Positions 25,907-30,031 of a DNA stretch of 42,811 bases are shown one piece after another. Every line of letters begins with the position of its first letter. The stretch's first letter is position 1. This stretch comes from Patescibacteria group bacterium (GTDB lineage: Bacteria; Patescibacteriota; Gracilibacteria; Absconditabacterales; Absconditicoccaceae), in the NCBI GenBank assembly GCA_022705745.1, contig JAKJDW010000008.1:1-42811 (forward strand), written 5' to 3'. Under the pieces are notes generated by a model. It searched no databases, had not been told where the DNA came from, and saw nothing but the letters and a program-made list of their open reading frames with translations. Made by a program: the position numbers and the translations under genes.

Positions 25907-26734
25907 ATGAACAATCAAAATCTTATAGATCTTGCAAAACAAAAATTACTTGACAAGAGGATATCCAATGGTTTTACCTTGTTTTTAAATGAAAACCAAT
26001 TCCCTCGTAGACAGACTGAAATAGCAGAAATAATAGGAAGAAGTTTAATTAAACAACTAATACCTTATAATTCTAGCTATTGTTTGACTAGAAAACAAAC
26101 CCAACAACTTGCTTTAGTGCTGTGATTTGATTTACAAAAAGATATGAGAATATTTTTACAACAACATGGGTTAAATGATAGTGTTGATATTTTAAGGTCT
26201 TCTAGAAAAGGAAAAACTGGTTGACAAGTTATAGCAGAAGGACTAATAAATCAATTTCATATAAATCTTGTGTTAAATAATAGTAGGCCAGGACATAAAT
26301 TAACCGTATCTCGTATATTGGATTTTATAGACGGATTGTGATTTAATCTGTATGAAGATATTAAAAATAAAGTTGAACAAGAAAAATCTACATATACTTC
26401 TGTTTTGATGAGTATGTTTCCTGGTGGTGGTAGTGTTTTAGAAACATTTAAAAAACGCTACTGAGAAACCTCGGAATATAGTTTTTTGAGAAAACAGATA
26501 ATTTTGGAACTTATCAAAGATATAAAATTCAGATGAATAACTTTAGATATATTTATAAGCAGAAGTAGAGAGATACTTCAATCTACTGCTGAAGGAGACT
26601 TATGACTTTCAAATATGAATCTTTATAAAAGGCTTCATTGGATATTGGGATATCCAATATCATCTGGATTGTCTTTAAAAGTAAAAAAAGAATTTGCAGA
26701 AATTTGGAAATATCATAGTTACCCTTATGTGTAA
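25907..26734 (+). CDS. Hypothetical protein, first of a tandem paralogous pair
   Basis: 275 aa with TGA = Gly. No known family recognised. Mostly helical and basic. FPRRQTEIAEIIGRSLIKQL and LTVSRILDFIDGLGFNL resemble helix-turn-helix segments, hinting at nucleic-acid binding. Other conserved strings are GFDLQKDMRIFLQQHGLNDS, VDILRSS, TYTSVLMSMFPGGGSVL and, at the end, NLYKRLHWILGYPISSGLSL with SYPYV. The following gene is a full-length paralogue; a 97-nt segment (26334-26430) is identical in both. A weak AAAGAG precedes the ATG. Regulator or small accessory-element protein is only a guess. Confidence 0.7.
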
Positions 26735-26855: not shown

Positions 26856-27692
26856 ATGAACAATAAAAATACCATAGATACTATAAAGCAGAGATTACTT
26901 GATAATGGGATATCTGATGCTTTTGCTCTTTTTTTTACTGAGAAAAAATATCCTCGTAGAAAGTATAGTACAACTCAAATAATAGGGAGAGATTTAGCAA
27001 AACAACTACTATGATGTAAACTTTCTCATACCATTTTAACAACAAAAGAAACTCAACAAATTGCTTCAATATTATGATTTGATTTACAAAAAGATATTAG
27101 ACTACTTTTGCAACAACATGGATTAAATGATAGTGTTGATATCCTGAGATCCTCTAAAATAGGAAGTTGCTGATGACAAGAAATAGCAGGAGGACTGATA
27201 AATCAATTTCACATAAATCTTTTATTAAATGATGGTAAATCTAAATCGAGACGCAAATTGACTGTATCTCGTATATTGGAGTTTATAGAGTGATTGTGAT
27301 TTAATCTGTATGAAGATATTAAAAATAAAGTTGAACAAGAAAAATCTACATATACTTCTGTTTTGATGAGTATGTTTCCTGGTGGTGGCAGTGTTTTGAA
27401 AATATTAAAGAAACACTCGTGAGAAACTTCAGAGTATAATTTTTTAAAAAAGCAAGTAATTTTGGAACTTATCAAAGATATAAAATCAAGATGAATACCT
27501 TTGAGTATATTTATGAGCAGGGGAAGGATAAAACTCCAATCTACTGCTGAAGGAGATTTATGACTTTCAAATATGAATCTTTATAAAAGGCTTCATTGGA
27601 TATTGGGATATCCAATATCATCCGGATTGTCTTTAAAGGTAAAAAAAGATTTTGCAAATGTTTGGAAAAATTATAGCTATCCTTATGTGTAA
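26856..27692 (+). CDS. Hypothetical protein, second of a tandem paralogous pair
   Basis: 278 aa with TGA = Gly; paralogue of the gene at 25907 along its whole length. Shared strings include QHGLNDSVDILRSS, LINQFHINL, LTVSRILEFIEGLGFNLYED and the same C-terminus ending SYPYV. Divergence is concentrated in the first 100 residues and at the SRRKLTV linker. The exact 97-nt identity and near-identical 3' ends, including 14 nt past the stop, point to recent duplication or gene conversion. After the stop, the same frame continues into a degenerate coding remnant. Confidence 0.7.
27292..27388 (+). repeat. 97-bp exact repeat shared by the paralogue pair
   Basis: Identical base for base to 26334-26430. 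It starts at GATTGTGATTTAATCTG and ends at CCTGGTGGTGG, coding the FNLYEDIKNKVEQEKS and MSMFPGG region. Flanks differ at many positions, including silent ones, so conversion of this block is likely. Confidence 0.85.
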
Positions 27693-28082: not shown

Positions 28083-28186
28083 AAAGAGATTTATTCTTAA
28101 GTGTATTATTGTATAAAAATGTTTGATATTTTATATTTAGTCAAATTATTTTATATAACCATTTGGTAGAACATATGTTCCCTGAA

Positions 28187-28229
28187 TAAAAAAATGTACC
28201 TCTAGAATTAAAACTAGAAGTACATTTTT
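28187..28229. terminator. Strong bidirectional terminator hairpin
   Basis: AAAAATGTAC-C-TCTAG, loop AATTAAAA, CTAGA-A-GTACATTTTT: about 15 paired bases with one mismatch and A/T flanks on both sides. It can end the plus-strand paralogue region and the minus-strand DsbA-like gene (stop at 28244). Confidence 0.85.
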
Positions 28230-28243
28230 GTTATTATGTTTTT

Positions 28244-29059
28244 TTAGTTATTTTTTAGTTTTTCAATTTCTTCAACAAATTTTTCTACCGGATATGCTCA
28301 TGGTATTACAACAAACCTTCAAGTTTCTCTATCTATGATAACATTACCTGGAGTACCACTAATACCAAACAAGCTTGCTCATTCATTTCTTTGATTATTA
28401 ACTTCTTGATTATATTTACCTGAGTCAACACATTTTGAAAGAGAATTTTTATTAACACCAAGTGTTCAAGCAATATCTATTATTGTTTCTATATCCAATC
28501 ATGCATCTGTGGCAAATAGTTGTTTTATAAATTTGTGCCTAACATTTCTTTTTAATTCTCCAACACACTCTATAGCTTCTCATAATTTTATGGCTTGACT
28601 GCTGGACACAAAACTTCTAAAAATTGAATTAACTTCACTTGGATATTTTTCAATTACATTGTCAATAACTCATTGGACAGATTGTCTCCTACAGTATCCA
28701 CATCCAAAATTAGAATATTCCAAAATAGTAAATCTAGCTGACTCTTTTCAATTATCAACACCATTGGCTGTTATCTCTTCTAATTTTTGTATTACATCTT
28801 CCGGAGATAAAATGTTTTCATTTAAATTATTGTTTTCGGCATCCATGTTTATTTGAGATAATGCTTGGTCTATGGCCATGGTTTGTTGAGAAATATATTT
28901 TGAAGAAGAATAAAGTTGTTCAACTTTTTTCATATTATTGATTCAACCAACCTTTAGAGTTTCTAGTGCTCGAGCATCTTTTTTGAATAAGTTTGCTATG
29001 TTTAATATTAAAATTAGTCATAACAAAATAATTATTCAAATGTTGTAATTTTTTGACAT
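28244..29059 (-). CDS. Membrane-anchored DsbA-like thiol oxidoreductase
   Basis: 271 aa with TGA = Gly. N-terminal membrane helix (about residues 4-22), then the module FKKDARALETLKVGG, NMKKVEQLY and QQTMAIDQALSQ shared with the next two minus genes. From about residue 110 a thioredoxin-fold domain: LEYSNFGCGYCRRQ with active site C120-G-Y-C123, an inserted helical domain, GISGTPGNVIIDRE with the cis-Pro, and EKFVEEIEKLKNN at the end. Faces outside the membrane, where it would form or shuffle disulfides in exported proteins. No DsbB/VKOR partner is in the window. It is the first gene upstream of the shared terminator. Confidence 0.88.
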
Positions 29060-29091
29060 GTTTGTCTAATTTTTAAGAGAGTAAATATTAT

Positions 29092-29250
29092 ATCAGTTCA
29101 TAAAGTTCATCAAGTTCATAAAGTTGGATAGGTGGGGGTTTTGCTTCCAACCACAACCCCATCTACCCCCATCTACCCGATAAATCGGGGGCTACAGCTT
29201 CCCCCAAGGGAAGAATGTTTATTTGTGGCTTGTAACTTTTAACTTGTAGC
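29092..29250. repeat. Mixed AT-rich and GC-rich intergenic repeats
   Basis: AGTTCATAAAGTTCATCAAG units (29094-29125) belong to the dispersed AT-rich repeat, and the inverted-sense TTGTAACTTTTAACTTGTAG closes the block (29230-29250). Between them is GC-rich DNA with the palindromes CCCGATAAATCGGG (29176-29189) and CTTCCCCCAAGGGAAG (29198-29213) and repeated CATCTACCC. CCCGATAAATCGGG differs by one base from the hairpin in the tRNA-derived repeats at 37050. Confidence 0.7.
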
Positions 29251-29253
29251 TAA

Positions 29254-29577
29254 CTATTCTAGCTCAATATCAACTATGTTTTCTTCTACATCTTCTTCCA
29301 ATGCTCATTCTTCTCATGCTATCATTTCGTATAACTCTTCTTCGCTAAGATTTCATAACATATCCATTTGAGATAATGCTTGGTCTATGGCTATGGTTTG
29401 TTGAGAGATGTACTCATCAGAATTATAAAGTTGTTCAATTTTTTTCATATTATCGGCTCAACCAACCTTTAGAGTTTCTAGTGCTCGAGCATCTTTTTTG
29501 AATAATGATAATATCTGCAATATTAACATTATTCATAGCAAAATAATAAGAATTAAATAATTATTTTTTCTTTCCAT
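29254..29577 (-). CDS. Short membrane protein sharing the DsbA-like protein's juxtamembrane module
   Basis: 107 aa with TGA = Gly. One N-terminal membrane helix (LILIILLGIMLILQILSLF), then FKKDARALETLKVGGADNMK, EQLYNSDEYISQQTIAIDQA, ending in a very acidic tail (GEEGALEEDVEENIVDIELE). The module is nearly identical to the one in the DsbA-like protein, down to a 48-nt exact DNA match (29458-29505 with 28943-28990). It lacks any enzyme domain, so it may be a binding or assembly partner. Function unknown. Confidence 0.75.
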
Positions 29578-29605
29578 TCTTTAATTTTAAATAATAAAAT
29601 AGTTT

Positions 29606-30031
29606 TTATTGTTGTCATGCTAAGTATTGATCTATGGCAGAAGTTTGTTGATCTTTGTATAAGTTAGAATTGTAAAGTTGTTCTACTTTTTTCATATTGT
29701 CAGCTCAACCAACTTTTAATTCTTCTAGCTTTAATGCAGGATCTTTTCTAAAGAAAAAGAATAGTGCAAAAAGCAAGTTTAAGATAACTAATATACATAC
29801 GATGATTTTTGTAAATTTTTCACAATTGGTGGAACAGCAACAAGTATGAACAGGATTTGTTTTTTTGGTTTCTACTGTTACTGAAGGTTTAACTACTTTT
29901 TTTGTAGAGGTCTTTGTTATTGCTTTTTTAACTATAGGTTTTTTGATAGAAATAGCTTTTGTGGCAGAGGCCTTTGCTACTGTCTTTTTGGCTATAGATT
30001 TTTTAGTAGAAACTTTTTTTTTAACAGGCAT
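29606..30031 (-). CDS. Membrane protein with histone H1-like basic tail and shared juxtamembrane module
   Basis: 141 aa with TGA = Gly. Residues 1-55 are a Lys/Ala/Thr/Val-rich tail (repeated KKxxAKK, KKxxxKK) like histone H1 or Vaa-type DNA-binding tails. Then a Cys cluster HTCCCSTNCEKF, one membrane helix (IIVCILVILNLLFALFFFF), and the external module RKDPALKLEELKVGGADNMK, EQLYNSNLYKDQQTSAIDQY. Basic tail in the cytoplasm and module outside is predicted by positive-inside logic. It could tether DNA or acidic partners to the membrane; the Cys cluster could bind metal. Both are inferences. Confidence 0.75.

Follow-up and report, generated by a model that had tools for sequence, protein, structure and literature searches.

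Three tandem membrane proteins with a common juxtamembrane module as candidate subunits of a ScsC-like disulfide isomerase complex in Absconditabacterales

The window analyzed here, a stretch of 42,811 nucleotides, belongs to a 1.06-Mb genome (G000; 66 contigs, 94% complete) of the order Absconditabacterales/SR1, which is represented by 49 genomes of one family. TGA encodes glycine in this genome, and use of code 25 has been described for the SR1 bacterium Aalborg_AAW-1 (PMC4463531). With open reading frames called under NCBI table 25 (TGA = Gly), three genes in a row on the minus strand, termed D, M and N, lie at the positions that a sequence-only reading of the window had assigned to them (Table 1); under table 11, in-frame TGA codons interrupt D 11 times, M five times and N twice. 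That reading had also described a module common to the three proteins, a thioredoxin/DsbA domain with CGYC in one of them, a Cys cluster on the tail of another, and an exact 48-nt identity between two of the genes, all of which are borne out by the open reading frames, alignments and domain matches presented below. N and M are separated by 28 bp, and M and D by 194 bp. The larger gap holds a G+C-rich insert (29130-29215) with short inverted repeats (CCCCCGATTTATCGGG); the same gap measures 15-30 bp in relatives. Convergent to the three genes are two tandem paralogous plus-strand ORFs (25907-26734 and 26856-27692; ~276 aa, MNN-N-ID--K--LL).

Table 1. Positions in the window of genes N, M and D and of their features
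Feature	Positions	Strand	Basis
Gene N (P0003, 141 aa): Lys-rich cytoplasmic tail, PxVxVETKK, Cys cluster, one TM helix, extracytoplasmic module, without catalytic domain	29606..30031	-	
Gene M (P0002, 107 aa): TM helix, module, acidic tail	29254..29577	-	
Gene D (P0001, 271 aa): TM helix, module, linker, DsbA-like thioredoxin domain	28244..29059	-	
TM helix and module of N	29609..29824	-	module model E 2e-39
TM helix and module of M	29362..29577	-	module model E 9e-40
TM helix and module of D	28847..29059	-	module model E 4e-39; AF2 helices 5-36, 40-51, 53-79
VETKK within PxVxVETKK, the conserved motif of the cytoplasmic tail (N)	29861..29875	-	motif comparison among N proteins
CCCSTNC cluster of N, cytoplasmic and next to the TM helix	29822..29842	-	sequence
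Catalytic CGYC of D, residues 120-123	28691..28702	-	Cys pair invariant in alignment
Stretch of 48 nt in D, matched exactly in M	28943..28990	-	
Stretch of 48 nt in M, matched exactly in D	29458..29505	-	
Terminator-like hairpin with T run, immediately past D and closing the N-M-D unit	28185..28235	-	-20.5 kcal/mol, z -7.1

The module common to N, M and D spans ~45 residues. In an alignment of 71-73 columns, M is 72% and N 51% identical to D. Run on the entire 1.06-Mb genome, the module model returned these three copies at ~1e-39 each and no further convincing one; given these scores, the lack of another copy in the genome and the recurrence of the same tandem in relatives, the resemblance is not due to chance. 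Module residues G38, G39, N42 and Y50 are as invariant as the CxxC motif in an alignment of 21 D proteins, and the TM helix is kept across D, N and M. The first module helix is significantly amphipathic (p 0.003) and the second is not (p 0.17), and for the latter reason we do not claim a coiled coil.

D matches the Pfam families Thioredoxin_4 (48.9 bits) and DSBA (30.6 bits), both over cut-off, and combines the CGYC motif with a Thr-cisPro loop (GTPG, residues 235-238); the Cys pair and GTP are invariant in 21 proteins. In its AF2 model (mean pLDDT 89.5), Gly-Gly separates the TM helix from two more helices, which a linker of lower confidence joins to a confidently modeled DsbA-like domain; the helices of Table 1 make up a helical N-terminal extension. 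For M by itself the prediction is of low confidence (pLDDT 67). Searching solved structures with residues 82-271 of D only, and hence without the module, gave Wolbachia alpha-DsbA2, PmScsC from Proteus, CcScsC from Caulobacter and BcfH among the top matches, with Z scores of 19-21 to the ScsC and alpha-DsbA2 proteins; the catalytic fold also matches the monomeric oxidases BdbD and alpha-DsbA1. The oligomeric state and isomerase activity of alpha-DsbA2, PmScsC and CcScsC stem from a helical extension at the N-terminus, and ScsC is kept reduced by ScsB (PMC6450060, PMC8900818). D resembles these proteins in its catalytic domain, in a helical extension of ~50 residues and in the CGYC motif, which is that of DsbC and PmScsC. 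Unlike the soluble ScsC and alpha-DsbA2 proteins, D is membrane-anchored, its extension is a GG-centered module of distinct sequence that it shares with two non-catalytic sister proteins, and its system includes a cytoplasmic Cys tail. Because of the membrane anchor and the different, shared module, D is not itself a ScsC but would work like one. In some relatives the DsbA-like domain appears circularly permuted, with the FG-SGTPGN..GAYP part ahead of the EYSDLxCPFC part (L048:8227-9180 in G024, L185:2880-3830 in G032, L186:3196-4104 in G015 and L181:3952-4923 in G440); one cut point is common to the three genus g15 genomes, and another is used in G440. In a tree of the thioredoxin domain, the D proteins at L052 and L180 (G030 and G439) do not group with the rest of the order's D proteins, possibly owing to transfer or a long branch.

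The cytoplasmic tail of N is Lys-rich and carries an H-T-C-C-C-S-T-N-C cluster ahead of the TM helix. N proteins of relatives likewise have a basic tail, mostly with PxVxVETKK, followed by the Cys cluster, TM helix and module; VET[KR][KS] is found in most of them, and the Cys cluster is conserved together with PxVxVETKK. The G000 genome has one other DNA match only to the VETKK motif. The tail had been called histone-like in the sequence-only reading: its Lys-rich character in G000 stands, but the histone feature is not conserved, and kinship with histone H1/HC2 was rejected (best match 15.9 bits against a cut-off of 40, with a short tail in most relatives). Cytoplasmic tails with at least three Cys occur in 31 of the 169 single-pass ORFs of the loci and are nearly confined to the N/D family, with only a handful of spurious-looking ORFs outside it. 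With G015 as the sole exception, such a cluster sits on one chain per system, either N or D. In G024 and G032, it is D that has the Cys tail, and N is without the cluster. Genus g4 mostly lacks N, and its G004, G022, G437, G438, G440 and G441 combine Cys tail, TM helix, module and DsbA domain in a single chain; in its G030 and G439, the tail is on an N encoded separately. These single-chain versions, together with the rule of one Cys tail per system, link N to D.

Which proteins could set the redox state of D? DsbB and VKOR gave no match in the 94% complete G000 genome or in most N-M-D genomes, which encode a CcdA-like protein instead. In G000 this protein (C12:2902-4065, E 1e-169) has a signal peptide, a CxxC domain (CTHC) and a membrane domain resembling CcdA, its cysteines lying in NPC and LLPC, as in the DsbD/ScsB/CcdA importers. 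It differs from those in matching DsbD-type families below their cut-offs (NCBIfam DsbD 4e-7), in having no C-terminal thioredoxin domain and in being encoded on another contig than N-M-D. Directly upstream of it lies a small secreted or lipoprotein-like gene without a Pfam match (L223:2234-2857, contig 12 of G000), similar to genes that also precede the CcdA-like gene in G014 and G003. Among module-bearing genomes, the CcdA-like protein occurs in 27 of 28 with a Cys tail versus 1 of 10 without (Fisher 6e-7), and by genus in 7/8 versus 0/9 (p 4e-4); these p-values ignore phylogeny, the CcdA label needing three changes on the D tree, which has no strongly supported branches against a single origin of that label. 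The exceptions are G007, with a Cys tail and no CcdA-like protein, and G014, with a CcdA-like protein and only two Cys. Presence of an N gene is weakly associated with the CcdA-like protein (p 0.045). DsbB or VKOR was found in 7 of the 10 module-DsbA genomes without the CcdA-like protein versus 5 of the 28 with it (p 0.005), and five module-bearing genomes have CcdA-like protein and DsbB together.

D could, alternatively, be a membrane-tethered DsbA-type oxidase that makes disulfides, as in the DsbA/DsbB and DsbA/VKOR pathways, with N and M as accessory scaffolds for substrates or at the Sec exit. Its DsbA/Thioredoxin_4 domain would suit this role, and tail-less module-DsbA proteins do occur mostly in genomes with DsbB or VKOR. 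We nevertheless consider it quite unlikely for the N-M-D genes, in view of the CcdA-like protein in place of DsbB and VKOR in G000 and most N-M-D genomes, the nonrespiring, fermentative lifestyle reported for SR1, and a CGYC motif as in DsbC and PmScsC. Because the likely partner is a CcdA/DsbD-like importer of reductant, a complex built on D is likelier to be reductive or isomerizing than to be a DsbA oxidase.

The same set of proteins might also form a metal-handling, Scs-like membrane complex, in which the Cys tails bind a soft metal and surface thiols are protected under metal stress. The tails are metallothionein-like, and ScsC has been reported to bind Cu(I). In G027, a second module-Dsb gene is directly followed by a CcdA-like gene and a Zn/Cd-type heavy-metal P-type ATPase gene (L050:7815-13466), the only case of a module-Dsb gene directly adjoining a CcdA-like gene; in Gracilibacteria WB-IL-23, a module-DsbA gene clusters with those for a probable multicopper oxidase whose cytoplasmic tail is Cys-rich and, judged from sequence, a likely cation-efflux transporter (L098:1776-7926). 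This metal context is nonetheless restricted to two other loci, and the conserved N-M-D locus adjoins polysaccharide genes rather than metal genes, which leaves the metal role improbable in our estimate. As to these other loci, the WB-IL-23 cluster also includes a rhodanese-like protein and a second DsbA-like protein, the G027 region resembles a mobile Scs-like metal island, and the second module-Dsb genes of G027 (L050:7815-13466) and G007 (L039:5464-9555) lie beside phage-type genes (portal, terminase-like).

Beyond the locus in which it was first noticed, the module proved to be conserved, occurring in 38 of the 49 genomes of the order (23 of the 26 of high quality), usually as N-(M)-D in tandem, closely spaced and in preserved synteny. 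A Wzy-like neighbor is common to 13 loci, and the vicinity also holds glycosyltransferase and pyruvyl transferase genes. The intact module had no match in 379 other Patescibacteria sampled (order-level model, E 1e-4), and a search of viral contigs returned one distant DsbA only. Other families of the class have a divergent form (E-Y-x-K-V-GG-K-E-N-Y; alignment A5) ahead of a DsbA domain; the two are nearly always encoded by a single gene, and several of these proteins have a cytoplasmic Cys tail. The proteins of families f14 and f164 are like the N-M-D proteins in combining TM helix, KVGGKENYDL module and DsbA domain, some of them Cys-tailed; they differ in being encoded by one gene in the loci examined (except for the module-only 117-aa protein of L201) and in a second module half without YxSxxYKxQQ. 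Within the order, G012 adds a single chain of basic tail, module and DsbA domain to those of genus g4. Because the other Gracilibacteria families have the module almost only as the N-terminus of single-chain DsbA proteins, N and M would represent split-off subunits, and the most parsimonious origin would be a one-chain ancestor of module and DsbA domain, in some cases Cys-tailed, that was later split by duplication and partial loss.

One may ask whether N and M instead use the module to bind another target, such as an envelope polymer, the S-layer or a predation apparatus, with D merely having the same anchor and no joint complex being formed. The module is transferable, as it carries a different Trx-like domain in L050 of G027, and the Wzy-like, glycosyltransferase and pyruvyl transferase neighbors would fit an envelope target. 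In the loci examined, however, the module is nearly always found in Dsb-type proteins or in genes adjoining them, and the single-chain versions and single Cys tail tie N to D; we regard such separate anchoring as decidedly improbable.

The history of M differs from that of N. M and D have no longer substring in common than the 48-nt segment, and the longest that N shares is 14 nt with D and 12 nt with M. Residues that are identical in G000 use the same codon in 45 of 49 cases between M and D (TM helix 9/11, module 36/38), versus 21 of 35 between N and D. In the module tree, M pairs with D of its own genome (G000, 100/100; G432, 94/97; G003, 83/88) or, in genus g14, groups with D of the genus (96/90), and most N proteins stand apart from both. 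The recent duplication proposed in the sequence-only reading thus applies to M and D, N sharing too little with either; by these comparisons the M-D duplication is probably recent, gene conversion being compatible with the same codon identity, and N is old. Because the tree joins M to the D of its own genome or of its genus, M would have been copied from D more than once, or homogenized with it. The acidic tail noted for M is present in G000 and specific to it; relatives have Q/P/T-rich tails, and in 12 genomes M consists of TM helix and module only. That M, and perhaps N, are drifting leftovers of partial D duplications would agree with this grouping, with the 48-nt identity and with their absence from many relatives, but is highly improbable with dN/dS of 0.15 for the M and 0.14 for the N modules of relatives, close to the 0.11 of D and thus not indicative of decaying fragments, with invariant GG and N in the module, and with an N that is kept along with its conserved VETKK and Cys cluster.

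We propose that N, M and D belong as subunits to one membrane-anchored, ScsC-like disulfide isomerase complex, probably hetero-oligomeric, that is fed by the CcdA-like protein, and assign this reading a probability of about 0.5. The sequence-only reading had suggested one complex with a redox enzyme. Operon order, the complementary placement of Cys tails and the single-chain versions favor that part, and a reductive or isomerizing activity is likelier than DsbA-type oxidation. Following the positive-inside rule, each chain would cross the membrane once with its N-terminus inside. On the outer side, the module, a helix, a Gly-Gly break and two helices, would hold the chains together, thereby fixing the DsbA-like domain of D, with its flexible linker, to an oligomeric base, the counterpart of the N-terminal helices of the trimeric ScsC and alpha-DsbA2 isomerases. 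D, with CGYC and TcisP, would shuffle or reduce wrong disulfides of surface proteins and would be kept reduced by the DsbD/ScsB-like protein with its CxxC and CcdA-like membrane domains (contig C12). N would give the complex its single cytoplasmic Cys cluster and VETKK as a docking motif, both possibly serving the electron-delivery side or a metal, and M would have been re-made from D in several lineages, or homogenized with it. Oligomerization through the module, the reductive or isomerase direction, and the roles of the Cys tail and VETKK are what we infer from these comparisons. By analogy, the N-M-D proteins would function like the ScsB/ScsC or DsbD/DsbC couple, a putative ScsB/DsbD-like reductant being encoded in the same genome. 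We further speculate that the non-catalytic subunits form a dedicated membrane base of the isomerase and that one of them, through its cytoplasmic Cys tail, hands electrons or metal on to the CcdA-like importer, the whole acting as one transmembrane electron relay, a tentative extension that is rather unlikely.

What would be the relevance of such a complex? In the literature searched, no paper on disulfide enzymes of Absconditabacteria/SR1 was found, and the DsbA-like isomerases described in PMC6450060 and PMC8900818 are homo-oligomers or monomers. One chain split into catalytic, scaffold and cytoplasmic-tail subunits would amount to a natural dissection of the role of oligomerization in disulfide isomerases. 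For the Absconditabacteria, a lineage of tiny, host-dependent bacteria, the proposed complex would offer a testable view of how fermentative cells, mostly without DsbB or VKOR, may care for the disulfides of their surface proteins.
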